From assembly GCF_000003195.3 (NCBI RefSeq), contig NC_012873.2, positions 22,222,347-22,286,346 of the forward strand: a DNA stretch of 64,000 nucleotides, written 5' to 3'. Origin of the DNA: Sorghum bicolor (taxonomy: Eukaryota > Streptophyta > Magnoliopsida > Poales > Poaceae). Under the pieces are notes generated by a model. The model did no database searches. It had not been told where the DNA came from and saw only the letters and a list, made by a program, of their open reading frames with translations. Below are positions 1-47,395 of this stretch, piece after piece. How positions within the stretch are numbered: the first letter of the stretch is position 1; each line of letters starts with the position of its first letter. Position numbers and translations under genes: made by a program.

Positions 1-1171
1 AGTCTCCTGTAATTTTTGTGGAATTTATTGATGAACAGAATTGCATGTGATTTTTAATGGGCCTAGAAATGAATAAAGAAAATTATGAATTGTTGTGTAT
101 ATAGGTTGAATAGAATAAGTAGGGTTTGGTGTATCTTTGAAGCGTCATGTGGGTTGCTGGTTGCATTTGAAAAATAATTGTAAAAGAGAATGCAATAGAT
201 GTTTGATTCAATTGTTTGTTCTTGGATGATGTTGACTACCTTGTAATGAGCATGACCGAGTACATTACATATGCATCATGTCATGACTCCTTTGTTACTT
301 TCTCATACAAGCATCCACTCGGGCATCTCGCACTACACTCATAAGCACACATGCATCATACAGGCTCGCAGGAGAACGAAGTGGGACCCGAGGAACCCGA
401 GGAGATTCAGGAGCAGGAACCTCCGGAAGCATAGGAACCCGAAGAGGAGCTGCAGGAGTGTCCGGATCACCGAGCCAGCACGTTTGAGAAAGGCAAGCCC
501 CGGAGCATTCTAAGTCTCCCTATTCTCGCTAACTTATATGATGCGCTATAATTGCTCTACTATATTGCATCTAAGTGATAGGATTTGATTGATACCGTTG
601 ATGCATATGTACTCCTTGTTATCCCTACTCGTTCACCTACCTTGTCCTATGTAGATTGGCACGGAGTCTATGCGTAGCTTGCTTAGTCCGGTAGAAGTCG
701 GGTGATTTCCTGTCACCTGCGAGAAATAGGTGGATACCTGCTTGATTAAGCATTGGTTGCTTGGGGAAAAGAATAACCAAGTGTGGATTGTAACTGGAGA
801 CCGGGCAGGGTCTTATGGTGGGTTGACCATAGTGCCCCTGCCTGCGTCGATTAAGGTCCAATCGTTGACGGCCCTCTTGTCATGTTGAACGCATGCCCCA
901 CACTTAGCTGGAAGGATAAGTCATTCCGACCGCGAAGCCTGAACACTATCCGGGCCGGGAATCGAGCCGCCATGCGCTGTATTGTTGATAGTTGAGGAGA
1001 ACGACGAGGGCGCGGCGCGCAACCTTGGTATACCTTGGATACCTCGGTCGCCGGAACGGTCCTCGGGTACTGGCGGTGCCTGCGGAACCCGCGAATTGGT
1101 CCTGGATAGTGTAATACGGTAATCTATAGCTCACTTGATCAGTGAGTGTGGTTTGTGTGGGGAATACCTCG

Positions 1172-1199
1172 CCAGCTGGTTAGAAATCGATTCGAATCG
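1172..1199 (+). promoter_or_regulatory. Paired palindromes conserved between LTR families
   Basis: CCAGCTGG (1172-1179) and CGATTCGAATCG (1188-1199) are perfect palindromes 8 bases apart. The same pair occurs in the 3' LTR of A (11773-11800), in inverse order in both LTRs of the minus-strand element D (31611-31639; 53559-53587 with one changed base) and in the LTR of H (61766-61794), with 8-9 bases between. The surrounding LTR sequence is far more diverged between A and D. The position, about 0.8-0.95 kb from the LTR 3' end, is also kept. A protein-binding site is an inference. Confidence 0.6.
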
Positions 1200-1516
1200 C
1201 CATCGCTCCTGGATAGTGAGCACTTGACATGAGCTTCGTCCTCGTAGTAAGGACTATGGAACACTTGGGTTACGTTGATGAATGGTTTTAAGAAATGCTA
1301 TGATGAGGTACTATCATAGCCTTATACTTGCTTGTAATAGTGCAGGTGCAAACCTAGATGATAGGTAATGATACTTTCAACTTGAGCAAATTAAAAGAAG
1401 AAAGACTTATGTAGGTTATGATAGTAAAATCCTGCGGCTTTGCAAAATGGTTGTCAGCTACCCGACTATATAGCCTTCATGATCCTTGATGAGTCTTTAT
1501 TTTAAGTTTATGACGG

Positions 1517-1574
1517 GTAAGTCTAGCTGAGTACCTTCTCGTACTCAGGGTTCTACTCCAATGTTGTTTTGCAG
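1517..1574 (+). promoter_or_regulatory. Conserved hairpin block in LTR (GTAAGT ... TGAGTAC/GTACTCA ... TTGCAG)
   Basis: A GTAAGT is followed by a 7-bp stem, TGAGTAC (1528-1534) and GTACTCA (1541-1547), with a 6-base loop, and then by TTTTGCAG ending at 1574. The minus-strand LTRs of D (31179-31229) and H (61399-61453) carry the same order of signals with the stem preserved and loops of 4 and 6 bases. The GT...AG bracket looks like splice sites, but 50-58 bases is shorter than usual plant introns, so a structural or regulatory RNA element is equally likely. Confidence 0.5.
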
Positions 1575-1997
1575 ATGGTCAAATGTATTATGGTTATTGC
1601 ATCCTCTGTCTGTACCCAGCCATGGGTGATGACTAGACCAAGGGCGATGGTCACTCCCTCTTTTCTTTTGCTTTTGTGGGAATGACCGAACTATGGCACT
1701 GTATCAGACTAAGTGTGTGTGTTGTATTTTCGAACTATGAAGCTTCCGCTACTTGAAGAACTTGGTTTGTAATAACATTAAGAACTCCGATGTATTATAT
1801 GAATGTTGTAATCTGGATGTATTTGTGAATGGCGACCGCTAAACTTATTACAATCTTGGTTGTTGTGCGATATGTGGTTTGAAATCCTTCGAGATTTCAC
1901 GGACTACCGGGATTATATGGGCTTAAGGGTGATGGTTTGACTATGCAAATGGTCACTGTTAGGCTTAATCTCTTATAATTTGGTCGGTTCTGTTACA

Positions 1998-2013
1998 GCT
2001 GGCATCGGAGCAA
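1998..2013 (+). other. Primer binding site of element A (initiator tRNA-Met type)
   Basis: Directly after the LTR end stands GC then TGGCATCGGAGC (2000-2011), two changes from the TGGTATCAGAGC complement of initiator methionine tRNA used by most plant chromoviruses. It would prime minus-strand cDNA synthesis. Confidence 0.8.
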
Positions 2014-2813
2014 GGTTTAGCGAGTTACTGTTCATAAGTACGTTCTAAACAAAATCTAAACTGGTCTAATAAAGGATTTTATTAATTAATAATGATCAAG
2101 GTGTTAAACTAAGTTTTGGAAAACTATCTAGTGTGCCATGGTCATATCCTTTATGCCCAGTTAAGGACTCTAAGGTGGCTAGTTAAGTACTGACTTGGGG
2201 GTTAATGCAACATATTTTTATTTCGTCGCTCATACGACGTGCAATAGTATGAGTGCCATTCACTTGAGTGGTAATGTATGGATCCATTTTTCCTCTACGT
2301 CACGGTAAGTGGGAGCTGTGAGAGCATAATCGGATACACTGCCGGTCTATGGGAGTGTTGTTAGGCACTGTGTCATGCACACATGTTTTTGGTGTGTCTT
2401 GGAAACAGTACCGCATGTTGGGAATTCCGTCCTGAGAGGCGATGCCGTCATTAGGGCGATGATATGGGTAGCAACACATGCTTGGACGGGTGTCAGTGTA
2501 TGTGAAGTGCATAGTTTTAAATTTTGTTTTGCATTAGCATACTGTGGGTGGGCTGAAATGAGTTTTCTGCAGGTACCCTAACCACGTTCTCGCTTAGAAC
2601 GCTAGTTACGTTATGAGAGAACGTTGTGTGCCACCGCATATACCGCTTAGTGTTAACCTTTATTTCTAAGTTTGTGAGATCGTAAGTTCGTGCATGCATC
2701 ATGTTCATGTCATATCATTGCTTACTTTCCCCCTTAATTTAATCTGTCCCAATTCTAAATAAAATAATTAAAGGTAATCCTCGCTCTTACCCACGGTATT
2801 CCATTTGCAGCAG
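2014..2813 (+). other. Leader of element A, non-coding
   Basis: About 800 bases without a credible gene; the short ORFs here have no recognisable content. The last bases before ORF0 (near 2780-2810) are pyrimidine-rich and end in TTTGCAG, a good splice-acceptor match 3 bases before the ORF0 start codon. Element D has CTCTACAG one base before its ORF0 start. Confidence 0.6.
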
Positions 2814-3857
2814 ATGGCACGCACTAGGCTCACCGCTCGCAAGTCCACTGGTGGGCGGGCCCCTCGCCATCCGTTGGCAGCTAGGAGCTCGCGACATAAG
2901 AGCAAGTTCCTGGAGGAGTTTGGGATGCCCACTTTGCTTTGGAGGGTGCTCAGTTCGATGGGGTATCCCGAAGGAAGGGAGCCTCGCTACTATTGGGATA
3001 AGGAGCCGCTTGGTGACGAGACCCTGGTGGGGATCGAGGCAGTTGTCCCTACCAATGGAGGAGACCCTGCTTGGGGTGGCTGGGTGTATGAGTCCCGAGG
3101 TGTCACGCCTTTCCACGGTGCCAGCAGGGCAGCTTTCGCAGTTCTGAGGGACCTCATGGAGAGGTTTCAACAGGAGCTGGCCCACGCCTTCGCTGGGGTG
3201 TTTCCCCGGAGTGACCCCTACACTTCGGTGTGGGATCAGTCCGAGGTGAATGCTCTAGAGAGGAGTGCGGATGAGGACCAACACAGTGACGGTGCAGCTA
3301 TGAGTGCCATGTACGCGTTGATGAAGACCTATGGAGGCCTGGAGCATTGTTTGGGCCGCTTGTCCGGGTCTCTTCTCACCGTCCAAGATGAGAAGCGTCA
3401 GTTGCACCGTGAGTTCGACTCTGAGGTTGAGAGGCTGCAGGCAGAGTTGGCCCGTGTGACCAGAGAGAGAGACCAGGCAGTCCAGAAGAACAGCGAGCTG
3501 AGTCAAGACCTGCTTGCAGTGCGAGAGCAGAGGGATAGGGTGGCCACTACTCACAGGAACTGCGAGCGCATGCTAGTTCATGTGCTTGGACAGAGGAATG
3601 AAGCCTAGCACGAGGAGGACACTTTGAGGGCCCGACAGTTAGAGCTAGAGCAGCAGCTAGCTAATGCTGAGAAGTACAATGAGAACTTGCATGAGGAGAT
3701 CCACCAGCTGCATAACCAGCTCCACCCTCATCACCTGCCTGGAGCAGCTGAGCTAGACTCTGAGGACGAGATGGACGCGGATCCCGAGATAGGAGCAGCT
3801 GCTAGTGGAGATGAGGATGAGGATGGCTCTGGCATGGACAGTGACCATAGCGAGTAG
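2814..3857 (+). pseudogene. ORF0 of element A: histone-H3-tail-like N-terminus, coiled coil, acidic tail
   Basis: An ORF between leader and gag, 347 codons with one in-frame TAG at codon 265 (3606-3608). I take the ATG at 2814. Residues 2-27 (ARTRLTARKSTGG, then RAPRHPLAAR) match the H3 N-terminus at 17 of 26 positions, with H3 residues 6-13 including the K9 context identical; K4, K14 and K23 are replaced by R and K18 by H. Residues about 30-150 are tryptophan- and aromatic-rich with no family I recognise. Roughly 190-305 form a coiled coil, and the last 45 residues are dominated by D and E, ending SDHSE. Element D has the same plan. Extra ORFs upstream of gag are known in some grass chromoviruses, function unknown. 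Chromatin or histone-chaperone interaction is my inference. Confidence 0.75.
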
Positions 3858-4174
3858 ATGCTAGTGCTCTAGAGCTAGTCCTTTTTCTTGTGTTGTTGTA
3901 TGTTGCATGGCATGTCGTGTACTTTTGGATCTGGGCTATGTAAAACTTTATGAGTTAATGCTGAAAGTCCAGTGTATGTATGCTGGCAAGTTAGATGTAC
4001 GCGAACCTTGTTGCGTGAACGTTAAGCAATCTGTTAGTGATGTTGTGCGTAGATGATGAATTGTTGTGCCTCTGTTTATTGTGTGAATTTATTCTCTCAG
4101 TAAATTCAGTGCGGCATGATTCTACACATTTCTACCGTTGATGGCAACTCCTAACGATTGCTTATCATTGACGT
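3858..4174 (+). other. Spacer between ORF0 and gag of element A
   Basis: 317 bases, no gene. It ends in GTATGCAG at the gag start, resembling a splice acceptor; element D has TGTAACAG at the same place. Confidence 0.5.
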
Positions 4175-5280
4175 ATGCAGATCGTACAAACACGTGGCGG
4201 GGGTAACAGCAACCCGGGCCTTGGAGCAGGTACATCCGGAGGTGGGGCTCAACGGAATGAGGACAGAGCACCAACACCGCCACCACCACCGCCTCCTTCG
4301 TACACTGCGGACGTGTTTTTCGCGCAGTTTCTAGGAAGCCAACACAACATGGAACAGATGCAACGCAACATGGAAGAGGCTCTGCACAACATAGCTGACA
4401 ACACCCGTCGTGGGGATAACCAGGGTGGCCGGGAAGTCAACCAGTACAGTTCGTTCAAGGACTTCATGGATACCAAGCCACCAATCTTCAAGGAGGCTTT
4501 GGAACCGCTCGAAGCAGACGAGTGGATCAACACCATGGAGCAGAAGTTTCGTCTTCTCCGTATGACAGAAGAACTTAAGGCTGAGTATGCGGCACATCAG
4601 TTGCAAGGACCCGCTGGGATTTGGTGGTCCCATCACCATACCACCTACCCATAGGGGACCCCAATTACCTGGAACCGTTTCACCACAGCTTTCCGGGGAA
4701 ATTACATTCCTCCGGGTGTGGTTGAAATGAAGGTTGGGGAGTTCATGAGGCTGTCCCAGGGGACGAAATCTGTGAAGGAGTATCTACATGCTTTCAATAA
4801 TCTCGCTCGCTATGCCCCTGAGTTTGTAAACACGGAGGCTAAGAAGATTGCTAGTTTCCAGAGGGGCTTGAATCCAAAGATGCTGAAGACCATGGGTACA
4901 GGAGCCAGAGCTACCTTCAATGCTTACATCAGTGACTGTCTCACCCAGGAGAACAACAACAACAACTACAGTGCATCCAAGTCACGAAAGAGGGCTTTTG
5001 AAGCCGGATCATCTCAGTCAAGGGCACCAGTGGCAGGGCGACAGCAGTATCGTCCTCCTGCCCCAGGTGCTAGGTTCCGACTGCCGTAGAGAAGGAACAC
5101 TGGGCATTCAATACAGCAGAAGCCGTACAAGGTGGCGATAGCCCCTGCCAAGCCGAAGGCAATTCAAGCCGCAGCACCTGCCATCAACAATGCGCCCAAG
5201 GGTCCATGCTATAACTGCCACAAGATGGGACACTTCGCTAAGGAATGTCCCTACCCCAAGAGGCAGCAGCCAACCTATCC
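4175..5280 (+). pseudogene. gag of element A (capsid and nucleocapsid), broken by stops
   Basis: Gag forms the virus-like particle in the cytoplasm and packages element RNA. The frame from 4175 has a proline-rich N-terminus, a retrotransposon gag capsid domain around 4470-4900 (EADEWI..ME..F, GIWW, SVKEYLHAFNNLARYAP), a basic linker, and a CCHC zinc knuckle CYNCHKMGHFAKEC at 5207-5248. TAG codons at 4652-4654 and 5087-5089 interrupt it; the reading frame continues unchanged after each, so these are point nonsense changes. It continues in frame into protease, the single-polyprotein layout of chromoviruses. Confidence 0.88.
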
Positions 5281-7200
5281 AGCTCGTGTGCACCATACCT
5301 CGAACGAGGGGATCCCGGAAGGAGAACCGGTAACGGCTGGTATGTTCTCTGTCAACCAACATCTTGCAGTTGTTTTGTTTGATTCTGGATCATCGCATTC
5401 ATTCAAGAGCCAAGCATTTGCACAAAAGCATAGTCAACCAATTACAGATCTGGGGTATGGCTACCGCATCAGCTCAGCAGGGGCAGATGTGTTGACCAAT
5501 AGAGTGGTTCGAGGGGCAACCCTGGATATAAGTGGCCGAGTATTCTGAGTGAATCTAGTGGTCATGCCTGGGTTAGTTTTGGATGTCATCATGGGCATGA
5601 ACTGGATGAGAGAATGGGATGCTGTCATAAATACTGGGAAGAGAATGTTATCTCTCAGAGAACCACAGGGCAGCAGCTCTTTTCAAGTACCTTTGCCCCG
5701 TCGTCTTGACTTTGCTAGCATCTCTTGTGCTACGCACGTGGTTCCATTACCACAGATCTCAGTAGTCTGTGAGTTCCCTGATGTTTTCCCTGAGGAATTA
5801 CCAGGACTTCCCCCGGATAGGGAAGTAGAGTTTGCAATCGAGTTGATACCAGGTACAGCACCAATATCTAGAAGGCCGTACCGGATGCCACCAAACGAAC
5901 TCGCCGAGTTGAAGAATCAACTAAAAGAGTTACTAGATAAAGGGTTCATCCGGCCAAGCTCGTCGGAATGGGGTTGTCCAGCGTTGTTTGTGAAAAAGAA
6001 GGATCAATCGTTGCGCATGTGCGTGGACTATCGTCAACTCAATGCAGTGACAATCAAGAATAAGTATCCTTTACCAAGGATTGATATCCTGTTTGATCAG
6101 TTGTCCAAGGCAAGAGTGTTTTCTAAGATAGATTTGAGGTCTGGGTATCACCAAATCAAGATTCGTCCGCAAGATATCCCGAAGACTGCTTTTTCCACCA
6201 GATATGGGTTGTATGAGTATCTTGTCATGTCCTTTGGGTTGACAAATGCTCCTGCATACTTTATGTATCTGATGAATTCAGTCTTTATGCCAGAATTGGA
6301 TAAGTTTGTTGTGGTGTTTATCGATGATATCCTGGTTTATTCAGAAAATGAGCAAGATCACGCCGAGCATCTGAGAATCGTGCTAACACGATTACGAGAG
6401 CATCAGTTATATGCCAAGTTCAGCAAGTGTGAGTTCTGGTTAAAGAAAGTTCAGTAGTTCTGGTTAAGCAAGTCCGAGGCACATTCTGTCAGAAGAAGGG
6501 ATTGCTGTGGATCCGTCAAAAGTGCAAGAGGTTATGGACTGGAAGGCACCAACTTCTGTCTCGGAAATTAGAAGTTTTCTTGGTCTGGCCGGGTATTATC
6601 GCCGATTCATACCTGACTTCTCCAAGATTGCCAAGCTAATGACAAGTTTGCTACAAAAAGATCATAAGTTTGTCTGGACGGAAGGGTGTGAGTTAGCCTT
6701 CCGCACCTTGCGAAAGTTGCTAACCACTGCTCCCGTTCTGGCACAGCCCAATATAGAAAAGCCTTTTGATGTGTTTTGTGACGCATCGAAGAGTGGCCTG
6801 GGGTGTGTGTTGATGCAAGATGGCAAGGTGATAGCTTATGCTTCCCAACAGTTGAGAAAGCACGAAGTCAACTACCCAACGCACGACCTCGAGTTAGCAG
6901 CAGTAGTGCACGCTTTGAAGATTTGGAGACATTATCTGCTGGGAAAGAAGTGTCACATTTATACCGATCATAAGAGTTTGAAGTACATCTTCACTCAATT
7001 CGAGCTAAATATGAGGCAACGACGCTGGTTAGAGCTAATCAAGGACTATGATTTGGAAGTTCACTATCATCCGGGCAAGGCTAATGTAGTAGCAGATGCG
7101 TTGAGTCGTAAACCACACTATCAAGTGGTTCAACCGTTGTTTGAAGATGGGTTCAATCTCATGCATCCTGAGGTCTTATGTCACATACAACTCAGTTGTT
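5281..7200 (+). pseudogene. pol of element A, first part: protease, reverse transcriptase, RNase H
   Basis: The aspartic protease shows LFDSGSSHSF with the catalytic Asp near 5381 and ILD-type [10 protein letters not shown] near 5580. Reverse transcriptase follows with LPPDREVEF, the motif [22 protein letters not shown] and the active-site FIDD at 6317-6328. RNase H begins FDVFCDAS near 6764 and includes [14 protein letters not shown] at 5546-5548 lies inside the protease. Around 6455-6490 a short duplication of GTTCTGGTTAAG shifts the frame from the second to the third, so RT and RNase H are in different frames. Order and motifs are typical of Ty3/gypsy chromoviruses. Confidence 0.92.
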
Positions 7201-8669
7201 CACTCGAGAGTCAAGTCATTGAAGGACAGAAAACAGACAAGGGTATTTTCCACATCAAGGAGAAGATCAAAGATGACCCAAAGACTCAATTTCGAGTTGA
7301 TGAAAAAGGGGTACTGTGGTTTCAACATCGGTTAGTAGTCCCTAAGGATCGGGAATTGAAGAATCGTATCATGGATGAAGCCCATCTCTCAAAACTTTCT
7401 ATTCATCCTGGCAGTAGCAAAATGTATCAAGATCTAAGACCCCACTTTTGGTGGACCAAGATGAAGAAAGAAATAGCCGCTTATGTAGCCCGTTGCGACA
7501 CGTGTTGCAGAGTTAAGGCCATCCATATGAAACCTGCAGGTCTGTTGCAACCGTTATCAGTTCCAGAATGGAAATGGGAAGAGGTCAGTATGGACTTTAT
7601 CACAGGATTACCGACCACGAGGAAGGGGAATGACTCGATTTGGGTGATCATAGATCGATTAACCAAGTCGGCTCCTTTCATTCCAGTCAAGAACACATAC
7701 AGACCTCCCGAGTATGCCGATATATATATGGCTGAGATTGTTAAGTTGCATGGTATTCCCAAGACCATCATTTCAGATAGAGGACCACAGTTCACCGCTC
7801 ACTTCTGGGAGCGAATGCATAAGAATTTGGGAACCAGTCTGATAAGAAGCACGGCGTACCATCCCCAGACTTCAGGTCAAACGGAGAGGCTAAACCAAGT
7901 ATAAGAAGATATGTTGAGAGCCTGTGTGCTATCATCCAAAGGATCATGGGAATCATGGTTACCTCTGGCAGAATTCTCCTACAATAACAGTTATCAAGAG
8001 AGCATCAAGATGGCCCCGTTCGAAGCTTCGTATGGTCGGAGATGTAGAACTCCGTTGAACTCGGTTGAACCTGGTGAGAGAAGATACTATGGTATCGACT
8101 TCGTGAATGAGGCAGAGAAGAAGGTACAAATCATACAGCAGCATATGCGCGCAGCGCAATCTCGACAAAAGAGTTATGCTGATAAGAGAAGAAGGCCACT
8201 TGAATTCAAAGTAGGTGACTATGTGTACCTCAAGGTTACGCCAATGAAGAAGGTTCAGCGTTTCCGAGTTCGAAGCAAGCTTGCACCCAGATATGTGGGA
8301 CCGTATCAAATACTAGAGAGGAAAGGCCCAGTGGCCTACAAGATTCAGTTACCTGAAGAGTTGAGCTCGATCTTTCCGGTCTTCCATGTGTCGCAACTGC
8401 GGAAATGTTTGAAGGTACCTGAGCAAAGAATTGAACCTCGAGGGATCAAGATAAAAGCAGACTTGGAATATAAAGAGCAGCCAGTGGGAATTGAGGATAC
8501 CAAGGAACGAGTAACCCGAAACAGAGTTGTTCGAACATACAAGGTGGTGTGGAGTCATCATGACGATAGGGATGCCACCTGGGAAACAGAGGATTACTTA
8601 AAAACAGTTTATCCAAAATTTCATAAGAAATGGTTAGTAACCCAAAATCTCGGGACGAGATTTCCCTAA
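7201..8669 (+). pseudogene. pol of element A, second part: integrase with C-terminal chromodomain
   Basis: The HHCC zinc domain lies at about 7375-7510 ([18 protein letters not shown]). The DD35E core spans about 7580-7890 with [18 protein letters not shown] and GQTERLNQ as the three acidic motifs. A TAA at 7902-7904 follows immediately. The GPY/F-type module (RYVGPYQIL) and a chromodomain ending YKVVWSHHDDRDATWETEDYL complete the protein at 8669. Plant chromodomains of this type direct integration toward heterochromatin; the group found in Tekay elements lacks parts of the methyl-lysine aromatic cage, so the exact ligand is uncertain. Confidence 0.92.
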
Positions 8670-8681
8670 GGGGGGGAGGGC
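8664..8681 (+). other. Polypurine tract of element A
   Basis: CCTAAGGGGGGGAGGGC directly before the 3' LTR, just after the pol stop; it primes plus-strand DNA synthesis in LTR elements. Confidence 0.85.
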
Positions 8682-11600
8682 TGTAACACCCTAGGTGTTA
8701 AGCTTGCACTTAGCCTTATCAAAGCAATGCATAAGCATTCTCATCAAGCATAGCATCATGGGCATGTCATTCATCCCAAAACATGATTTTATGTGCTTTA
8801 TTTCATGTGTTTTAATTATGCTAAAAATATGATGCTTGCTTCTAAAAATGTGAAATATTCAAACTAGGTTGATCTATGAGTAAGAAGAATTTAGGGTATT
8901 TTTGTGTAAATTTTGAGCTATGGAATTTGAGAAATGGAATTTATACAAGATTTCCAAATTGAATTTATTTAAAAACCTAGAACTAAGTTTTAATTTGTAA
9001 TTCAAATTCTATTTGGAATTTGGTCTTGCTTATTAAAGCAAAGTTGTAGAGTTTTTGTTTTGGAACAACTTTGTTTTTGGGTGCAAGAGGTGAAAATGAT
9101 TTTAAATTGGTCCAAATGAATTTAGAAAGAATTTGGAGAAAAGAAATTCAAAAAAAAAAGAAAGGGGCAGGCGCTGCTGGGCCAACCCCGCTTCCCTTTC
9201 GGCCCAGCGAGCGGCCCGGCCTGCTCCCCCTCTCCCCCTCTCTCTCCCGCACGCGGACGCGCCTCGCTCCACCCGGCACCGGCCACGTGGCGGCCGTACG
9301 CCGGAGTTGGACGCGCCGCGGCCGGCCTCCAACCCCCCTGGTCGGGACGCCGGCTCGGGCTCCCAGGCCATTTCCTCCGTTCTGTCCCCCGCGCCCTCCT
9401 TCTCCTTCCTCCCTCCGCTCGAACCGCGCAGTAGCAGCAGCTCCTCCGCGCGCCATTGCCGGAGAAAGCCCCGCCGCTCGCCGCCGACCGCACCAGAGCC
9501 TCAAGCTCACCGCCGAGAGCACCAGCGCCTTCGTCATCGTTAGGGTAAGCTTGTGCGCGCGTTCTACCGAGGTGAGAGTCCGTCAAGCGCCGTGAATCGC
9601 TCGCCGGAGTTACCCCGAGCTCGCCGGAGTACTCCGCCACGACGGATCTTGTGTTTCTCTGCCTCTTTTCGCTGGTTCTTGGGTGCGCTAGGTCGGTAGG
9701 GTGGTGAGGAAGCTCGGAGAGGCGTTTGCGCACGCTCTACCGCGCCGGAGCGGCCTGGCCACGGCGAGCAGCGCCGCCGTGCCGCCATGCATGCTTGTCG
9801 GAGGTGTTCCGGTCATCCTCCGGCCAATCCAAGGGTACCGTTGGGTGCGCCTCGCTGCGGGGAGCACGTTGGTGCTTACCCCGTGGCCGGAGACCTCACC
9901 GCCGGCGAGATCTGCTCGTCGGAGGTGAGCTCCCTCTCGGTCTCGCTGACCGGTGGGGTCGGGGACCCACTATCAGTCGCAGGGGGACCCCGGTGGGTGT
10001 AGATCTGGGTGCGCGTAGCCTTTTTCGTCGGTAAAATTTATATTTCCAGAAATTGATTCAAAACTTGTAAAATTTATATCTTGAGTTCTATAGCTCCAAA
10101 TTGGATGAAATAAGTTTTGGTGTGCTCTATATTTCCAGATCTACAGTTTGATGTAATTGCATGTCATGTTTGAGTAACTTTTCTGAATGAATATATTTAA
10201 TCCATGTTTTTGCTAAACTTGGAAAATGCATAGTAAATAAAATATGGTTCAGAAAAATGTGAAACTTGATTTGTTGGCTCTGCATGTATGTTTACTCACT
10301 GGGAAAATATTGCTACATATTATTTGGTGTATAAATGAAATTATGGTAATTTAAATGCTTGCATGGCAGTGATATATGATTTTTTAATAATTAATTGGAT
10401 CATGCAATAAATCTGGAAAATTTTGTGGGTGTTTCTTATGATATTAGACAAATTGTAAAAATATGAAATCTGTTGTTTGACACTTATATCACAGTAGAGT
10501 GATTATACTTACCCTATGAATTAATCTTGTGATTTTTGTGGCTCAAAATAAGTATCCAAAAATTATGAAAAAATTTACAGTAGACTTTATGCTTAGCTGG
10601 TAGTCTCCTGTAATTTTTGTGAAATTTATTCATGAACAGAATTGCATGTGATTTTTAATGGGCCTAGAAATGAATAAAGAAAATTATGAATTGTTGTGTA
10701 TAGAGGTTGAATAGAATAAGTTGGGTTTGGTGTATCTTTGAAGCATCATGTGGGTTGCTGGTTGCACTTGAAAAATAATTGTAGAAGAGAATGCAATAGA
10801 TGTTTGATTCAATTGTTTGTTCTTGGATGATGTTGACTACCTTGTAATGAGCATGACCGAGTACATTACATATGCATCATGTCATGACTCCTTTGGTACT
10901 TTCTCATACAAGCATCCACTCGGGCATCTCGCACTCCACTCATAAACACACATGCATCATACAGGCTCGCAGGAGAACGAAGTGGGACCCGAGGAACCCG
11001 AGGAGATTCAGGAGCAGGAACCTCCGGAAGCACAGGAACCCGGAGAGGAGCTGCAGGAGTGTCCGGATCACCGACCCAGCACGTTTCAGAAAGGCAAGCC
11101 CCGGAGCATTCTAAGTCTCCCTATTCTCGCTAGCTTATATGATGCGCTATAATTGCTCTACTATATTGCATCTAAGTGATAGGATTTGATTGATACCGTT
11201 GATGCATATGTACTCCTTGTTATCCCTACTCGTTCACCTACCTTGTCCTATGTAGATAGGCACGGAGTCTATGCTTAGCTTGTTTAGTCCGGTAGAAGTC
11301 GGGTGATTTCCTGTTACCTGCGAGAAATAGGTGGATACCTGCTTGATTAAGCATTGGTCTCTTGGGGAAAAGAATAACCAAGTGTGGATTGTAACTGGAG
11401 ACCGGGCAGGGTCTAACGGTGGGTTGACCATAGTGCCCCTGCCTGCGTCGATTAAGGACCGATCGTTGATGGCCCTCTTGTCATGTTGAACGCATGCCCC
11501 ACACTTAGCTGGAAGGATAAGTCGTTCCGACCGCGAAGCCTGAACACTATCCGGGCCGGGAATCGAGCCGCCATGCGCTGTATTGGTGATGGTTGAGGAG

Positions 11601-12597
11601 AACGATGAGGGCGCGGCGCGCAACCTTGGTATACCTTGGATACCTCGGTCACCGGAACGGTCCTCGGGTACTGGCGGTGCCTGCCGAACCCGCGAATTGG
11701 TCCTGGATACTGTAATACGGTGATCTGTAGCTCACTTGATCAGTGAGTGTGGTTTGTGTGGGGAATACCTCGCCAGCTGGTTAGAAATCGATTCGAATCG
11801 CCATCGCTCCTGGATAGTGAGCACTTGACATGAGCTTCGTCCTCGTAGTAAGGACTATGGAACACTTGGGTTATGTTGATGAATGGTTTTAAGAAATGCT
11901 ATGATGAGGTACTATCATAGCCTTATACTTGCTTGTAATAGTGCAGGTGCAAACCTAGATTATAGGTAATGATACTTTCAACTTGAGCAAATTAAAAGAA
12001 GAAAGACTTATGTAGGTTATGATAGTAAAATCCTGCGGCTTTGCAAAATGGTTGTCAGCTACCCCACTATATAGCCTTCATGATCCTTGATGAGTCTTTA
12101 TTTTAAGTTTATGACGGGTAAGTCTAGCTGAGTACCTTCTCGAACTCAGGGTTCTACTCCCATGTTGTTTTGCAGATGGTCAAATGTATTATGGTTATTG
12201 CATCCTCTGTCTGTACCCAGCCATGGGTGATGACTAGACCAAGGGCGATGGTCACTCCGTCTCTTCTTTTGCTTTTGTGGGAATGACCGAACTATGGCAC
12301 TGTATCAGACTAAGCGTGTGTGTTGTATTTTCGAACTATGAAGCTTCCGCTACTTGAAGAACTTGGTTTGTAATAACTTTAAGAACTCCGATGTATTATA
12401 TGAATGTTGTAATCTGGATGTATTTGTGAATGGCGACCGCTAAACTTATTACGATCTTGGCTGTTGTGCGATATGTGGTTTGAAATCCTTTGAGATTTCA
12501 CGGATACCGGGATTATATGGGCTTAAGCGTGATGGTTTGACTATGCAAATGGTCACTGTTAGGCTTAATCTCTTATAATTTGGTCAGTTCTGTTACA
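8682..12597 (+). repeat. 3' LTR of element A (3916 bp)
   Basis: It begins TGTAACACCCTAGG after the polypurine tract and ends TTCTGTTACA; its last 1996 bases match window bases 1-1997. At 3.9 kb each LTR is more than half as long as the 6.7-kb internal region. It contains an AT-rich start, a sharply GC-rich block (9160-9990), another AT-rich stretch, and the two conserved motif blocks (11773-11800 and 12117-12175). Confidence 0.93.
9160..9990 (+). other. GC-rich island inside the LTR of element A
   Basis: About 830 bases of high GC with many CpG between AT-rich flanks. Open frames run on both strands here, but they are the by-product of GC-rich composition and encode nothing I recognise. The LTRs of element D have a block of similar composition at the matching position (33070-33800 and 55060-55830), and H enters one at the window end, where it aligns with A near 9950-9980. 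It may hold the promoter or R region; no clear TATA box decides this. Confidence 0.5.
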
Positions 12598-13460
12598 AAT
12601 CCGGCCGTCAAAAGCTTGTGGATTTCACTGGCTTGGAACCGGCTCGAATCTCCAAGGAGTGCTCGGCGACTTCCCTCGGTATGCCTGGCATGTCCGAGGG
12701 ACTCCATGCAAACATGTCGGCGTTCGCACGGAGAAAGTCGACGAGCACGGCTTCCTATTTGGGGTCGAGGTCGGCGCTGATCGTCAGCGCCTTGCCATCA
12801 GAGTTGTTGGGGTCGAGCGGGATCTTCTTGGTTCCTTCCGCCGGCTTGAAGCTGCCCGCGTGGCGCTTGGGCTCTAGAGCCTCAGCGGCCAGGGCCTCGA
12901 TCTTCGAGACGAGCTCGGTGGAACCTTTGACTGCCTCCCCATACTCAACGCATTCGACGTCGCACTCGTATGCGTGATCGTAGGAGGAGGTGACGGTGAT
13001 GATGCCCTTGGGCCCGGGCATCTTTAGCTTCAAGTACGTGTAGTTGGGAATTGCCACGAATTTGGCGTAGCCTGGGCGTCCGATGATGGCGTGGTATGTG
13101 CCTCAGAACCCCACCACCTCAAAGGTGAGGGTCTCCTTTCTGAAATTGGCCGTTGTGCCAAAGCAGACCGGTAGGTCGATTCGACCTACCGGCAACGCCT
13201 TCTTCCCTGGTACGACGCAGTGGAATCCACCAGCGCTTGGCTGGAGCTGCGTCCTGATGATGCCGAGGAGGTCGAGGGTCTCGAGGTAGATGATGTTGAG
13301 GCTGCTACCGCCGTCCATCAACACCTTTGAGAGCCTAGCGTTGATGATGATGGGATCGACGATGAGCGGGTAGATGCCAGGGGTGACTACCCTGTCGGGG
13401 TGATCGTCTCGGTCGAAGGTGATGGGGGTGCTCGACCAGCTGAGGTACTAGGGCACAGCC
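12598..13460 (-). pseudogene. Protease region and start of reverse transcriptase, element B
   Basis: Minus-strand frame with a retropepsin-like segment, MDGGSSLNIIYLETLDLLG near 13270-13324 (catalytic D-G-G form usual for Tat elements), then YHAIIGRPGYAKFVAIPNY and the linker ending SADLDPK. A TGA near 13103 breaks it. After DLDPK comes TAG (12757-12755) and then EAVLVDFL..DMFAWSPSDMPGIPREV, the beginning of RT, until A interrupts at 12598. The TAG occupies exactly the same codon as a TAG in element C. Confidence 0.85.
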
Positions 13461-13478: not shown

Positions 13479-15908
13479 TCATGGCGTTCCCTCTTGTGTT
13501 GCTTTTGCAGTCAGCTGTGTCGAGGGGCCTCCGTAGATCATATAGCAGTCGTGGACGGCAGGGAAGCCGTCGTCGTCTTTGCCATCCCCTTTGTCACCGC
13601 TCTTTTCTTTCTTTGGGTCGTCACGGGCGTCCTTCTTGAACCCTAGACCATCAAAATGCTTTTTCCGCATACGACAGTCCACGAGCTTGTGGTTGGCTCC
13701 TCCCTTATGGTAAGGGCATGGCTCCTTTAGCATCTTATCGAAGATGCCCACCTCTAGAGGGCCTCGGGGCTTTTTGCGTTCCATGGCGGCGACGAGATCG
13801 TAGTCGAGGTCTTCCCGCTGGAACGACCGTGTTTTCTTCTTCTTCTTGTTCTTCTTGGGCCCTCGACCGAGACTCTCATCCTCATCGGTGGGCGGCTTGC
13901 CTTTCCTTCCTTCACAGCTGAAGAAGTCGCCGACCGCTTCCTCCCCTGCCGCATAGTTTGCCACTACGTCCATCAACTCGTCGATGGTCTGGGGACGATT
14001 CCGGCCCAATTCCCGCACCAAGTCTCGACTGGTGGTACCAGAGACGAAGTCCAGGATGACGTCGTGGTTGGGGATGTGCGGCAGCTCGGTGCGTTGCTTC
14101 GAGAAGCGTCGAGCGTACTCTTGGAGGGTTTCTCCCAACTTCTGCTTGCATTTGCTGAGGTCCCACGAGTTGTCGGGTCGTATGTAGGTCCCCTTGAAGT
14201 TACCCTCAAACACTCTGACCAAGTCGACCCAATCGTGGATCTGGTTAGCCGGGAGCTCCTCGAGCCCTCTGCGGGCGGTGTCAGAGAGTAAGAGCGGCAG
14301 CTGTTTGATGATGGCTCGATCGTCCCCTCGAGCGCCTCCTAGCTGACCGGCAAGCCTAAAATCTGCCAGCCACAGCTCTGGCTTGGTCAAGCCGTTGTAC
14401 TTTGCAATGCTGGTCGGGGGTCGGAATGGGCTGGGCAGTGGCGTGCTGCAGATTGCCCTGCTGAACACCCACGGGCCTGGTGGCTCTGGGGCCATCCGGT
14501 CCTCATCGCTGTCGTACCTTCCGCCGCGATGGGCGCTGTAACTGCGCTCCTCTGCGTCTCCATATCGACGGCGACGATTCTCGTCGATGTCACGTCGCGC
14601 GTCGTGTCGTCGTTGGTTGTCGATGGGGAGGACGAGCGTGGTCTTTTTCCCTCGAGGGGGCGGCTGCTGATGGACTGATACCTCCTTTTCATTGTGGGCC
14701 GGCTCATCGCGCTTTTCTGTGGCCGCTCCACGACGTCGAGAGGCCGTGCTCTCGGCTTGCTGTGCTACCTGGAGCAGAGTCTGCACCTCGTCTCGAATGC
14801 GTCGCACTTGGGAATTTGACGGCTCAGGCATATTACGCAGCAACATTGTTGCCGCCACGACGTTCTGGCCCGCTCGAGGGAAGCGGCTGACAGTTTGCTC
14901 AGGCTCTTCTTCTCCGACGATCTACCTATGGACTTCTTGAGCTCGTCTGTGGACACTTCCGCCCGGTGGGTAAGGCAGGTCCTGCTCAAGAACTTGCTCG
15001 AGCAGGACCAGGCGCTCACGATCTTCGTCGAGTTTTGTCTTGAGCTCTCGCAGCTGCGCAAGTTGCGCGACTCTATCTTCTTGCGGCGGTGGGTCGACCT
15101 GTCCGTCGTTCCCAGGCGTCCTGGGGTCTTCTCTTGCTGCAGGGGCTCGACCGCCAATAGCGGCATCCTGCGTCTCGTCGGTAGTTTCTACCGCCCCGTC
15201 GATATGATAGCACTCCCTAGTAGGGTCATAGCTATCGGTCTTGGAATCGGAGTCCGGCTCGGCGGCGTAGAAACATCCACGTTCCTCTTCCAGCAGCCGC
15301 TGCCTGAGCGAGGTGATCGTGTACTGCCCAGGGCCTAGGCGGCAGAGGCCTCGTACCTGAGAGAAATCTGGTAGCTCAGACGTCCGCTGTTGCACTCCGG
15401 TGTCGCGTGGGAGGACCATTGGTCTTTCCACGTATGTCTGGGCGCTTGGACATATTATCCTGGCGAGCGACGCCGCGGCATTGTCCAGGCCGAATGGCAA
15501 TGCTCTTCTTGGGGCGACCAGCCCATGTGGAAGTAGCCTCACGGTGGGGGAGAGCGCGTGGGGCGCGTCACCTCCTGTCGTCGTGCGATCCTTGTGGTGC
15601 CGAGTCATCATGCCCACGGCTTTGGCGCATGGTGCCGTCGGCTCCTGTGTCACCTCCTGCCTAGCATGAACCGTCGGTCGTGACGAGGCAGAAGGGCGAT
15701 GATGGTGCTGTCCACGCTTCTTCTTGGGCGGGGAGGCGTGATGGCGAGGGCGTCTCGGGGCCCTCGTCGATGCTGGCGCAACGCGGGCTCCTCCCGGTCC
15801 TTTGATTGAGAGCAAGATCATGTCGTAGCCGGAGCCAGTAGACATGAACTCGAGACTCCCAAAACAAATCACCGTGGAGCACAGAATCGGTGAAGAAAGA
15901 GTGGCCAT
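13479..15908 (-). pseudogene. gag of element B
   Basis: The gag polyprotein starts at the ATG at 15908, 39 bases from the primer binding site. The N-terminal part (to 14922) is basic and low-complexity with a coiled segment (LKTKLDEDRERLVLLEQV). After an in-frame TAG at 14924-14922 the same frame continues to 13479 with the Tat-type capsid domain (AKYNGLTKPELWLADFRLAG, SWDLSKCKQKLGETLQEYARRF) and a lysine-rich linker with a C/H cluster (CPYHKGGANHKLVDC). It ends in TGA at 13479, after which the protease continues in another frame, so at least one frameshift and one nonsense change separate this from a working polyprotein. Confidence 0.88.
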
Positions 15909-30658: not shown

Positions 30659-33600
30659 TGTGGCAGAACCTCCTAAGTGTTTGGGTCCACCGACACCTAT
30701 CATTGTCCTAAGGACCTCTGATGGTGATGTCGGGGATCCTTCCACTTTAGAAGCCCGATGAGCATCCCAGGACGCCCATTCCACCGCTACCTGAGGCGTA
30801 TTAACCAAGCTCGTCCTGACCACTAGCAATGGTCAATTAACGAGAACTTCTTATTCTCGCCCTTACAGGATAGCGAGTGGCCACCTTAACACCAGGATCA
30901 TTCGTTGCGAAGACATTGCAGTACCACAAATGAGATATAACCAAAATAGCATTTTGGAGTAAAATAGCGGAAGCATTTCATAACTTAATTTACAAAAGTA
31001 GTTCTTCCAAGTAGTAAAGTGTTATTACAAGCCAGGTCCAGTGGAGCAACTTAAACTTTAGTACACATATTATAAATTTATAGACCCTGCCCATGGGTCA
31101 CACTTACTCCTCTTCGTAGTCAACTTCAACGACGGTCACACAACAGGGTCCGAAACAAGTCAGCTCCTGAGCTTCACCTGCAACAAGGGTTATAAAACCC
31201 TGAGTACGGGAGTACTCAACAAGACTTACCCGGCAGAAAAAGAGGAGAACTTACGAATGCAGGCTTAGGGTAGACAAGGAGTGGCTGAGCAAGGAGCCAA
31301 ATTATTTTGCTAAAAAGCTTACTAATAGTGCGTCCTTACTTTCAAGTTTTACCCACGAATTCCTCTCCTCAAGAGGCCGAGGAGTTCGAGGACAGTCTAT
31401 CTAGTTGCTTCTCACAGACAAGTCTGTAAGTTCCTAGTCCTTAATCAAAGTATTATCCATCCAACGGCCATAGCTTCATGTCACTCTGAGTCCGGGAATT
31501 GGGATCCGAACCTCATGAGACATTTTCCCCTTTTTCATTTTACCACTTAGTTGTATCTTTAACTACGACGAGGGTCGAAGGAATTGAGTATCCCAATCGG
31601 GGAGCAACGACGATTCGAATCGCTTAGCAATCCAGCTGGAGTTCCTAACCACCCGACATATGTAGAACTAAATCTTGCATATGTCAACCCAAATCTAGCT
31701 CTCCCCAAATTTGACCGGGTTCGCGGCACCCGAGAGCACAGTACCCCACCATCCAGCCCATTTGCTAGGAGGGTACACGCTACTCTCACCATCGCTCCAT
31801 GCCCAGTGCGCGAGTAGCCGTTCGCGTCGAGGGATCACAAGACCAGGCTTACCGAGGGCAAGTGGCTAGTACTATAAATTCTCAACCTAGCAGGCCATCA
31901 ACAGAAAGGTCCTTAATCAACATAGTTGGAGACACTACTTTAAGACTCCATTCTTAAAGCATGTCCACCGACCGGTCTCAAGTTGAAACATCATTGACCA
32001 TAAGGTATTCCACAACAACCCTTCAAACTTTCTTATTGAAAACCTATCTAGTAGGAGGGCTAAGCATCACTGCACAATTTTAAAATAAAACAGGTGCCAA
32101 GGACAAGGTATCAAATATCAAGGTAGTAAATGCAACAAGTAGGTTAACCCAATTCTCAACTATGTAATGCAGCATTTTCAATTCATATGTGATAAAAGAT
32201 TTAAAACATTCATGGAGGGGTTAATGCATCCGGGCCTAGCTTGCCTTGGTTGCAGAGCTGAGAGGGTTCCTCGGAGACTAACCAACCTTGGGATGCGTTT
32301 CAACAGTCGCTCCTTCGGTCACGTGCACTATACGCAAAATGATGAATGATCATGATATGCATATGGCAAATATTTAAGAAGGACCGAGTTGAGTACAACT
32401 TTCCTTCTCAGTGCAAGGACGGTTAAACAGTAATTAAAGTTGTTTATCATTTTAGTGTTTTTACCCAAGAGGTTGCATCCGAAAATTAAGATTTCTCTAA
32501 ATTCATAATTACCATTAATTAACGAATTATTAATCCTTTTTATCTTAATTAACTCTTATTTGAGTATTAATGACCGTAATTAAGCATTAATATCAAACAA
32601 TAATTAAGTGCCAAAGGTCATTAAGGTTAATGACCTTATGTCATCATACAATCCCAAAATCACTCAAATCCTAATTTGAGAGACTAAGCTAATCATTACT
32701 TAACTATTTTGGACTTATTGCTAAATTATTAATTAAGGGTATAACAAAATTTTATACAAACATTATCCAAATGCGACCAAATTTTGTGTGAAGCCAGGGA
32801 ATAATATTCAGAGGCCTCTCACAAATTTTGGTGATTTTTGGACATACCCATAAATTATTAAAATTCATGAAAGTTTTATTTACTAATTAAAAGATACAAT
32901 TTTCATACATATGTAAATTATCAGAAAAGGAAATCTAGCATTTTTCCTTTGTTCTACTCACTGCATAGAACATAACCTAATATTTTCACTATTTTTGGAC
33001 CAGCATAGAATTTTCTACACAAATTCAAATATAAATCAATTTTAAACAAAAAGAAAAAGAGAAAGCAGCACTGTGCTAATGCGGCCGGCCCTCTTGGCCT
33101 CGGTCCAAGTCGGCCCGAGTGCTTCCCGCGTCACGCGCGGGCACCCCCCCTCTCACGCGGTGACTGATGGGCGGGTCCCGCCCGTCAGCTCCGTCTTCTT
33201 CCTCGCGCCCCGATCGGTGGGATCGACTCTGCCCCGCCCTTCGCCGGTAAGGTGCCTCCCTAGGGAGAACTTGGCATCCAGCTCGTGCTCCACGCTCCTG
33301 CGCAGCGTTCCCCTCCCCCGGTAGACGTTCTACCACTCTCCGATGGCTCCGACCATGGCCGTGGCGGACACCGATGCTGGTCGACGCGGCAACAGCTCCT
33401 AGGACCCGATAGAGCATAAGAGGGAGGGTTTGGGAGTATTAGAGGCTCACCGCGATCTTGAGGAGCTACTCAGAAGCTACGGAGAGGTCGAGATGAGCGT
33501 TGGCCACGGTGAGGCACTCACGGCAGCGCTTCGGCCGGGTTTGGAGAAGAACCACTCGGTTGGGGGCTACAAGAGGCTAGAGCTTGCGCTAGGGGGCGCA

Positions 33601-34602
33601 AACTGTTGCTGGGTTCTTGGCGAAGCTGCTGGGGGGATCTGGTAGCTTGGAAGGGAACAAGGGAGATGAATTTTGTGGGCGAAGAAGTTCACCGGCGTCA
33701 GGTGCGAGAGAGGCAGGCAGACACAGGCAGGCAGGAAGCTGCGTGCTCGCACGCATGCACGCGGCGCTGCACGCGCGGCAGCCACGCTGGACAGGGGCGC
33801 CGTGATCTCTATCGGATCACTATAGCAAGCTCTATCCTCCCCCTTTCTGTCTTTTTGCGAAATTCATCCAAAATTTGAACTGAAGTCAAAATTTAGTTAA
33901 AACAAAAGTTGTGAAGCATAAAATTCCCTACAACACCTCCTTAAGGCTCAAATTCAAATTCTGAAAGGAACCAAGTGAATTTAACCAAAACAGTTTGAAA
34001 TTCAAATTCACATTTGAGGGAAATTCCAATCTTGAATTTGACCAGAACAGAAATGCAAAAATTACTTTCGATTTTCCATAACAACTTGAAACATCCCAAC
34101 ACGAAAGTTGTTCAACTTTTTGAGCTCTACAACTTTCATGTTGGTCACTCTTCGAGATTCCAAATAGATTTTGAATTAGGGATTCAAATTGGAAAAGGGG
34201 ATAATTTTTGGAAATCTGTATTTTCAAAATTACTTTGAATTTTGCATTGAAACTTCAAAAACTCAAAACTCCAAAGTTGTACATCTTGACAAGATCTATA
34301 ACTTTGCTTTTGAACTCAATCTCAAATTTTGCTTGGTTTTTAAATTGTACAAAAGGGGGCAAAACTAGGGTTTGAAAATCAGGGTTTCCCCTCCCTACTT
34401 TCTCGGAAATCTTCAACACTACGGATTTCACAACCACACTAGCTTCAATACACATTGTAAGCACACTTTAATTCCCTAAGCACAAGCAATCAAAGTAAAC
34501 TTGTTTTAAGTTGGTGCATCAAGTTGTGCTTAACCAATATGCTATGCAATGCTCATGATGACATGATCCAGTTTTAGTAACCGTAACATCAGGGATGTTA
34601 CA
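30659..34602 (-). repeat. 3' LTR of element D (3944 bp)
   Basis: Plus-strand edges TGTGGCAGAACC and AGGGATGTTACA. On the minus strand it follows the polypurine tract AAGGAGGAAGGGT at 34603-34615. It contains the paired palindromes at 31611-31639, the hairpin block at 31179-31229, a GC-rich block at about 33070-33800 and AT-rich sequence elsewhere. Two overlapping 77-codon frames near 31559-31817 recur in the other LTR but only because the DNA does. Confidence 0.93.
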
Positions 34603-35404: not shown

Positions 35405-35409
35405 ATGGC

Positions 35410-35869
35410 TGTGGGGGTATAAACCCCTATACCCTTACGGTTAGACTTCGGCCAAGAAGCTTGGCCCATTACGAGACGAGTTCAAGGCTTGATCCGACAA
35501 CCTGGAGTTTCGCGCAAGGAAACAAGATGGGGAGATCAAGCAGGATTCTAGTCGGTTAGAATAGGAATTGATATCGAATTATCCATGGCAATTGTAACCG
35601 ACTAGGATTAGATTCCAGATCTGTAACCCTGCCCTCCAGACTATATAAGGAGGGGCAAGGGACCCCCCTAGGACATACGATTCTCTCAACACAAATCAAT
35701 ACAACCAGACGCAGGACGTAGGTATTACGCCAACTCGGCGGCCGAACCTGGATAAAAAGCTTGTCCGTGTCTTGCGTCACCATCGAGTTCGTAGTTTGCG
35801 CACCGTCTACCGATAAACTACTACCGTGGGTATACCCCAAGGTAGACTGCCGACCAGCTTTCGTCGACA
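35410..35869 (+). repeat. 5' LTR of element C (460 bp)
   Basis: TGTGGGGGTATAAACCCC to TTTCGTCGACA. Differs from the 3' LTR only at four substitutions (two near the start, two in the middle). Confidence 0.95.
35641..35650 (+). promoter_or_regulatory. TATA box of element C
   Basis: CTATATAAGG in the middle of the LTR; the copy in the 3' LTR is at 47167-47176. Transcription should start about 30 bases downstream. Confidence 0.75.
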
Positions 35870-35870
35870 G

Positions 35871-35888
35871 TGGCGCGCCAGGTAGGGG
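35871..35888 (+). other. Primer binding site of element C (tRNA-Arg type)
   Basis: TGGCGCGCCAGGTAGGGG one base after the LTR; complementary to the 3' end I recall for plant tRNA-Arg (CCU). Confidence 0.8.
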
Positions 35889-46090: not shown

Positions 46091-46371
46091 GGGACTGCAC
46101 CGACCACCGAGCACTCGACGCTCGGGGACTGGTCGCCCAGTCTATCAGCTCGGAACTTCAAGGACTGCACCGACCACCGAGCACTCGACGCTCGGGGACT
46201 GGTCGCCTAGTCTATCAGCTCGGAACTTCAAGGACTGCACCGACCACCGAGCACTCGACGCTCGGGGACTGGTCGCCCAGTCTATCAGCTCGGAACTTCA
46301 AAGGCTGCACCGACCACCGAGAACTCGATGCTCCGGGACTGGTCGTACAGTATAGCAACGTAGAATTCTAA
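46091..46371 (+). repeat. 70-bp tandem repeat in the 3' region of element C
   Basis: Four copies, the last one diverged, of a 70-base unit starting GGACTGCACCGACCACCGAG and containing CTCGGGGACTGGTCG. The first three differ at only one or two positions. Tandem repeats in the 3' untranslated region are known in plant Tat/Ogre-type elements and can seed satellite DNA. Confidence 0.92.
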
Positions 46372-46935
46372 GGAGCGCACTTGGTGCTTGGGGACTGGTC
46401 GTCATACTATTATACACCCGGGGACTGGTCGATTAGTCTATTCAATTGCAGACGGACTGGTAAATTCAATTTTTTAGACCTTGCTACAAGGCTCATACTT
46501 CGCCTTCCGGCAAGCTCGGGGACTACATCGGTACGATGCATCTGGCGATGCATCTTAGTTACAGAATTTCTTTGAGGTCTTTTATTTTGACCCTGGCACC
46601 ACGTGCCTACGTCACCTACTACCAGGCTCGGGGACTAAGTGGGCACACTTCACCTTGCGGTGAATATGCTTGCTTTTTTGATGTTTATACCTTTCAAAAA
46701 AGTAAAGTGGGCACACTTCACCAGGAAAGAAATCTTTTTTAATTTAGAGCACCATGCATTCTTCGAACAACTCGCTTCTTCGATGTCAATGTTGATCAAC
46801 TGTCTTTTGAGCTGGTCAAAGAACCGTTGCAACTGTTTTGGTGACTTTCCCACTTATTGAAGACGTCAAGTCTCACAGATCGAAGAAGCTCAAGACGGCG
46901 TGTTACATCACAATACATGGTGCTCGGGGACTAGC
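46372..46935 (+). other. 3' untranslated region of element C with repeated polypurine-like motif
   Basis: No gene. CTCGGGGACT or a near copy recurs (about 46389, 46419, 46516, 46627 and 46923), besides the copies in the 70-bp units; the last stands directly before the 3' LTR in the place of the polypurine tract. GTGGGCACACTTCACC also occurs twice (46639 and 46708). Confidence 0.7.
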
Positions 46936-47395
46936 TGTGGGGGTATAAACCCCTATACCCTTATGGTTAGACTTCGGCCAGGAAGCTTGGCCCATTACGA
47001 GACGAGTTCAAGGCTTGATCCGACAACCTGGAGTTTCGCGCAAGGAAACAAGATGGGGAGATCAAGCAGGATTCTAGTCGGTTAGAATAGGAATTGATAT
47101 CGAATTATCCATGGCAATTGTAACCGACTAGGATTAGTTTCCAGATCTGTAACCCTGCCCTCTAGACTATATAAGGAGGGGCAAGGGACCCCCCTAGGAC
47201 ATACGATTCTCTCAACACAAATCAATACAACCAGACGCAGGACGTAGGTATTACGCCAACTCGGCGGCCGAACCTGGATAAAAAGCTTGTCCGTGTCTTG
47301 CGTCACCATCGAGTTCGTAGTTTGCGCACCGTCTACCGATAAACTACTACCGTGGGTATACCCCAAGGTAGACTGCCGACCAGCTTTCGTCGACA
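46936..47395 (+). repeat. 3' LTR of element C (460 bp)
   Basis: Same length as the 5' LTR with four substitutions; followed by ATGGC, the target duplication, and then by integrase codons of element D. Confidence 0.95.

Follow-up and report, generated by a model that had tools for sequence, protein, structure and literature searches.

The ORF0 protein of element A, a Ty3/gypsy LTR retrotransposon with a chromodomain in Sorghum bicolor, begins with a genuine likeness of the N-terminal tail of histone H3. The preliminary description of this DNA proposed such a likeness in a chromodomain-bearing Ty3/gypsy element; the proposal is borne out, and the likeness is spread over the ORF0 family. Comparisons of codons and copies indicate that long-term selection has maintained the tail. 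ORF0 may be a decoy or recruiter that alters the H3K9me2 silencing of its element, a reading whose probability falls a little short of an even chance.

Element A and the H3-like start of its ORF0

The plus-strand parts of element A occupy positions 1–12602 of the window, that is, of the whole 64,000-nucleotide stretch that was analyzed (Table 1). The element has LTRs longer than 3 kb and a chromodomain that is weak yet recognizable (best PDB chromodomain match, E 1.3e-4); this layout and the chromodomain type point to an assignment to Tekay. Between the 3′ LTR and the in-window part of the 5′ LTR, 27 transitions and 22 transversions were counted at 1996 aligned sites (K2P 0.025), which at a substitution rate of 1.3e-8 would correspond to an insertion about 1 My ago. 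The sequence directly following the 5′ LTR presumably resembles the plant tRNA-iMet primer binding site. Pfam gives no match for gag positions 4175–4651, and the ORF that follows includes a CCHC zinc knuckle. In the pol region, RVP_2, RVT_1, RT_RNaseH, and Integrase_H2C2 are above the Pfam cut-off and rve is below it. ORF0 is a sense ORF between the LTR end at 1997 and gag at 4175, as are the 5′ extra ORFs of grass Tekay elements. It is closed by a TAG at 3606–3608, and the same frame continues to 3857.

Table 1 Features of element A and the ORF0 of element B in the window.
Feature	Position	Strand	Evidence
5′ LTR start of element A	C4:22220423, upstream of the window		Start and TSD AATCC read at locus L069
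5′ LTR of element A, 3′ part	1–1997	+	97.5% identity to 10602–12597
PBS-like sequence, directly 3′ of LTR end	1998–2015	+	Position after LTR
H3-tail-like ORF0 N-terminus (Met and residues 1–26), M-ARTRLTARKSTGGRAPRHPLAARSSR	2814–2894	+	Translation, tblastn, PDB searches, shuffles
ORF0 of element A, to in-frame TAG, 264 aa	2814–3608	+	Translation; homologs; sibling copies
Predicted dsRBD-like domain (alpha-beta-beta-beta-alpha, model residues 38–117)	2925–3164	+	AF2 models of window copy and P0020; fold matches
Predicted long helix (model residues 160–263), probably a coiled coil	3291–3602	+	AF2 model of window copy, up to the stop
Acidic C-terminal stretch in ORF0 frame, beyond the in-frame stop	3756–3854	+	Sequence
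gag region, frame interrupted by stops	4175–5089	+	Translation
Protease, reverse transcriptase, RNase H, integrase core; broken frames	5132–7904	+	Pfam
Group-II-like chromodomain, integrase C-terminus	8505–8615	+	Pfam Chromo E 0.0025, below curated cut-off
Polypurine tract	8668–8681	+	Sequence preceding 3′ LTR
3′ LTR of element A	8682–12597	+	K2P 0.025 vs in-window part of 5′ LTR
TSD AATCC (5 bases)	12598–12602	.	Partner copy just beyond window edge
Class III ORF0 of element B, tail MGHWKQTPRKRTVPKGVPRHRLAPR	51535–52239	−	Sequence comparison

The N-terminus of ORF0 reads MARTRLTARKSTGGRAPRHPLAARSSR. A tblastn search of the whole window with H3 aligned 26 residues of the tail, starting from H3 residue 1, with 65% identity and an E of 5e-6; the next-best row had an E of 0.70. 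The match at 17 of 26 residues that had been noted earlier is thus confirmed, in register from residue 1, as is the complete identity of residues 6–13 (TARKSTGG). Shuffling the letters of the tail 200,000 times gave a maximum of 12 identities. In a search of PDB chains with the window tail, the best 60 of 134 rows with E ≤ 1 were all H3-type (best E 3.8e-4), with alignments in register save for expression tags or a missing Met. A search with the family profile A2 reached an E of 1.6e-7, and the best 60 of its 136 rows were again H3-type. In the PDB searches with the tail and the family profile, no H3 likeness extended past about residue 28 of ORF0. The AF2 models show no histone fold after the tail, but instead a helix–three-strand–helix domain and a long helix. 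ORF0 therefore has an H3-like modifiable stretch within a non-histone protein of a genetic parasite, which is the sequence hallmark of a histone-tail mimic.

ORF0 classes, body, and selection on the tail

Protein searches for relatives of ORF0 returned 40, 90, and 3 matches, and in most of the 145 sibling copies that were scored the listed frame is open over 359 codons. The tail is found in other family members, which disposes of the possibility, raised in the preliminary description, that they lack the match. The ORF0s belong to three classes. Class I proteins (the window copy, P0020, others, and many fragments) are long and have a tail, a globular domain, a helix, and an acidic end. Those of class II (P0039 and P0040, with P0091 and P0104 as fragments of the same kind) are short, with a tail, a coiled-coil-like body, and an acidic end. 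Class III proteins (element B, P0050, P0127, and others) begin with M(A/G)R.KQTPRKRTGPKGVPRHQLAPR, followed by a coiled-coil-like body and an acidic end. Acidic C-terminal ends were seen in P0001, P0014, P0020, P0039, P0040, and P0127.

The alignment took in 34 of 36 tails, all except P0048 and P0121. The pattern used required K9 and P16 and limited positions 6, 8, 12, 17, 20, and 21; the conservation of these positions is therefore read from the pattern-free body-anchored and class III sets described below. In the alignment, R2 is present in 25 and K4 in 27 of the 34 tails, versus 16 for T3 and 15 for Q5. Position 14 is K in 16/34 and K or R in 30/34. Where H3 has K18, T22, and K23, the tails have H18 (32/34), P22 (22/34), and R23 (30/34). 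The window copy carries R at position 4. The earlier claim that K9 is the sole H3-like lysine retained describes this copy and does not extend to the family, in which K4 and K14 are often kept; the K4R/K14R/K23R design that leaves K9 alone appears limited to the window copy and its near kin. P0027 and P0051 are identical to H3 throughout residues 1–13, and are thus nearer to H3 than the window copy. In class III tails, P7 and R10 mostly replace the A7 and S10 of H3, and an additional residue follows K14. When N-termini from the database were anchored on the body, the tail was present in 34 of 35. We infer that the 5′ end of a gene for H3 was captured once, long ago, and that its descendants then diverged.

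Copies of class III ORF0 of the P0050 type (150 scored of 1505 candidates) are in many cases 97–99% identical, with mostly open frames, which points to recent spread. One sibling ORF0 (G000:C7:41976168-41976959) lies within a 1345-codon open frame, as if fused in frame downstream. In P0038, the start of the ORF0 globular domain is joined, as judged by eye, to a piece resembling the 459-aa ORF at 13479–14858 (−) of the window; P0038 is possibly a chimera of two elements.

In AF2 models of the window copy and P0020, the body has an alpha-beta-beta-beta-alpha domain, in agreement with fold comparison, and the long helix of the P0020 model spans residues 159–296. A Foldseek search of the PDB with the dsRBD-like domain gave a best E of 0.015, with no match at or below 0.001. 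In fold comparisons, the top-ranked matches of the globular domain, which are tied, are the plant small-RNA proteins DRB7.2 and DCL4 (dsRBD2). Unlike these proteins, with which it shares 13–18% identity, the ORF0 domain largely lacks the RNA-contact lysines, as judged by eye. Canonical dsRBDs contact RNA through a GPxH loop and a KKxAK motif. By eye, helix 2 of the ORF0 domain starts with GASRAAF or GAGKAAY, with one basic residue, and no GPxH loop was seen. Of the 95 Pfam families matched by 53 members, the 25 that were listed do not include dsrm. The dsRBD-like domain and long helix of class I are thus a prediction from the models. No dsRBD-like domain was found in the class II (P0039, P0040) and class III sequences examined, and a small-RNA part of the function therefore cannot be general.

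When 14 chosen ORF0s, including the incomplete P0030 and P0033 with its internal deletion, were compared pairwise, identity was higher in the tail than in the body for 90 of the 91 pairs, with means of 62% and 32%, respectively. Relative to L061, the tail of element A differs at 86% of silent and 32% of replacement sites, and that of element B at 74% and 14%, respectively. Thirteen of 23 tail residues are identical between element A and L061, nine of them with different codons. Class I loci anchored on the body only (57 of 60; three were without the anchor) retain K9, P16, and L20 in 57/57 and R8 in 54/57. A read based on the tail pattern covered six of eight regions and L042, and missed L063 (P16 to S) and L067. 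In class III, K9 is retained in 24/24 copies, and R8 and K9 together in 22/22 tails. The tails of 24 class III copies (L063 left out) have 22 silent and 6 replacement variants that are shared, the latter including W3 to Q, a two-step change that contributes two, and 7 silent and 10 replacement singletons. Shared variants of the class III body, with indels not handled, number 50 silent and 16 replacement, and the body is as constrained as the tail.

Over the whole ORF0 of 49 young class I copies, singletons comprise 98 replacement and 59 silent variants, whereas shared variants comprise 37 and 93 (Fisher p 9e-9), a contrast that indicates purifying selection on the protein during the spread of the family. 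By contrast, the tail core of these copies has a replacement/silent ratio of 0.89 versus 0.15–0.26 in other parts of ORF0. Replacement:silent counts in the tail core are 12:5 for singletons and 4:3 for shared variants. In the first 30 copies, residues 2–31 had a ratio of 0.29 versus 0.15 and 0.14. The ratio set contains 49 of 51 distinct sequences, seven of them with stops, and some places were fetched twice; ranking by similarity to the query favors conserved copies. The ratio of 0.89 counts against strong recent constraint on the tail in the young class I family, and because of it and the small counts, a dN/dS claim from these copies alone was dropped. Neutral decay of the tail, which the preliminary description had considered, fails as a long-term account in view of the tail–body, codon, and class III comparisons, although the young class I copies taken alone lack clear tail constraint.

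Possible roles of the tail

In plants, SUVH4/5/6 write H3K9me2, whose readers are CMT3 and ADCP1; ADCP1 recognizes R2-K4-K9me2 (PMC6318295). ORF0 would be a small protein of grass Tekay-type retrotransposons that bears a captured and long-kept H3 N-terminal tail. Removal of Met would leave a free H3-like N-terminus, and in the nucleus, where the protein would act, the K9 region could serve as a ligand or substrate of the host factors for H3K9me2, namely SUVH/KYP writers and CMT3/ADCP1-type readers. The long helix would render ORF0 multivalent. As a decoy or recruiter, ORF0 would then weaken the H3K9me2 silencing of the element or turn it to use, and in class I the dsRBD-like domain may additionally contact the small-RNA branch.

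Recruitment or titration of host K9 readers or writers, which was among the roles proposed earlier, is the best candidate reading of the sequences. The preference for R2 and K4 over T3 and Q5, together with the retention of R8-K9, P16, and L20, would fit a substrate or ligand of the K9 machinery rather than a K27 mimic, which fits less well because the H3 likeness stops near residue 28. Since the H3-like start is kept in very different relatives, it is probably a bait or handle for the silencing machinery. Several findings count against a decoy or recruiter: R4 and the TAG-interrupted ORF0 of the window copy, the high tail ratio of young class I copies, and the class III body constraint that equals that of the tail. 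The P7, R10, and extra residue of class III may also be rejected by HP1-like pockets. A two-handed anti-silencing protein, in which a K9-methylated or K9-read H3 tail would titrate or redirect the loop between H3K9me2 and DNA methylation while a DRB-like dsRBD of class I would reach the small-RNA branch, is conceivable but rather unlikely. If it existed, it would be a retrotransposon-encoded histone decoy maintained through three ORF0 classes.

The chromodomain of element A has W-S-H-H where related chromodomains show W-x-N-Y. For the CHD_II chromodomains of Tekay, PMC3350952 and PMC6317226 report that Y24 is missing and usually Y48 as well. The earlier suggestion that the tail is bound by the chromodomain of its own element is thereby weakened, and such self-binding was set aside as the main model on account of the missing cage residues.

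The tail could instead dock the RNP or integration complex on heterochromatin factors or H3 chaperones and so guide integration, without countering silencing. The same tail and helix data would suit this tether, the element also bears a chromodomain, and gene-poor chromatin is a safe insertion site. However, a group-II-like chromodomain without cage residues speaks against it, a free H3-like tail would be expected to draw readers and not nucleosomes, and Retrosat2 and its homologs are scattered, with no clustering in centromeres or similar regions, according to Gao 2012 (PMC3485330); a tether is unlikely. Similarly improbable is a tail that acts as a nuclear import or chaperone signal of the H3 type, with a K9 context devoid of epigenetic function. 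The import signals of H3 tails use K14 and K23, and both positions are mostly basic in the 34 tails; however, the near-invariant R8 and K9 of classes I and III are not needed for import, and the retention of P16 and L20 in class I exceeds what basic charge explains.

A captured H3 fragment kept merely as a basic RNA- or DNA-binding arm, its H3 likeness functionless, would accord with the Arg-rich tail and with its variation among young class I copies. Such a relic is decidedly unlikely, as conservation between classes whose silent sites are nearly saturated and whose bodies have diverged extends to residue identities and not only to charge, and none of the 57 class I loci or 22 class III tails has R in place of K9. 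A chance likeness or a host fragment in one copy is scarcely credible: nothing was found in its favor, and the tblastn, homolog, and sibling searches, the PDB matches, the 34-tail alignment, and the shuffles are all contrary to it. Chance is ruled out by the shuffles and database searches, and a single-copy accident by the family-wide distribution. If the decoy or recruiter reading and its dependence on K9 are true, a plant retrotransposon would be imitating the substrate of heterochromatin in order to fight or exploit it. Such a finding would extend histone mimicry, described chiefly for viruses, to the plant transposon arms race, and the conserved H3K9-type tail makes the function testable precisely and cheaply.

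Relation to described systems and other features of the window

Literature searches, judged by titles and the starts of abstracts, found no paper on an H3-tail mimic of a plant retrotransposon. Steinbauerova et al. (Genetica, 2011) are said to have noted partial histone H3 similarity in part of the extra ORFs of Poaceae chromoviruses, and the H3 likeness itself is therefore to be treated as probably known. This weakens the statement in the preliminary description that no description of such a mimic was known. New here are the in-register, long-kept tail in three classes, the dsRBD-like link, and the functional reading.

In the literature examined, no function has been established for the additional 5′ ORF that grass Tekay elements carry. 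The ORF0s of Retrosat2, RIRE3, RIRE8, SorSat2, and ZmSat2 are likewise sense ORFs between the 5′ LTR and gag in the consulted part of Gao 2012 (PMC3485330). Element A shares with Retrosat2-type elements its gypsy type and LTRs of more than 3 kb, and is likened to them by layout, not by ORF0 sequence; its LTR starts with TGTAACACCC, that of Retrosat2 with TGTCACACCC. Unlike the H3-tail reading presented here, the same part of Gao 2012 models ORF0 as hydrolase-like or other enzymes, and the word "histone" is absent from its main text, as it is from that of the aORF review PMC7264820. PMC11728184 describes the 5′aORFs of maize Tekay and sorghum Sb7 as weakly similar to a soybean DRBM protein (TM 0.35–0.37, E 0.04–0.25), and the AF2 models here agree with a DRBM-like fold. 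"Histone" has no occurrence in its main text, and its consulted sections contain no tail, selection, or class analysis of 5′aORFs.

Viral histone mimics with ARSK or ARKS motifs are, like ORF0, parasite proteins with an H3-like modifiable motif; however, those quoted in the relevant part of PMC10208167 are short motifs, whereas the likeness in ORF0 covers about 26 residues from residue 1 and belongs to a retrotransposon. The VANC proteins of Arabidopsis VANDAL elements (PMC5735166, PMC10398659, and PMC13317346) are element-encoded extra proteins that counter silencing, which for ORF0 is only proposed; the VANCs recognize short DNA motifs of a DNA transposon. To our knowledge, VANCs have no H3 tail.

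The LTR-like repeats of element B (minus strand), each about 4 kb long, occupy 30659–34602 and 52610–56625 and are 93–94% identical. Element B appears to be split by a nested insertion, with 467-bp repeats at 35408–35874 and 46934–47400 that are 98.9% identical. At 46092–46345 there is a short tandem array with units of about 70 bp.

The ORF0 ATG of elements A and B lies 0–3 bases past a 3′ splice-acceptor-like sequence (TTTGCAGCAG-ATG; CTCTACAG-G-ATG); the sites examined were 2754–2820 and 4121–4190 in element A and those just upstream of 52239 and 51319 (−) in element B. The gag of element B likewise follows an acceptor-like sequence (TTGTAACAG-ATG), and in the gag of element A the acceptor AG falls slightly within the listed ORF. 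An identical 16-mer is found at the ORF0 start in 26 of 30 copies. In the leader of element A, 21 ATGs precede ORF0 and a donor-like GTAAGT occurs near 2303; ORF0 may therefore derive from a spliced RNA.
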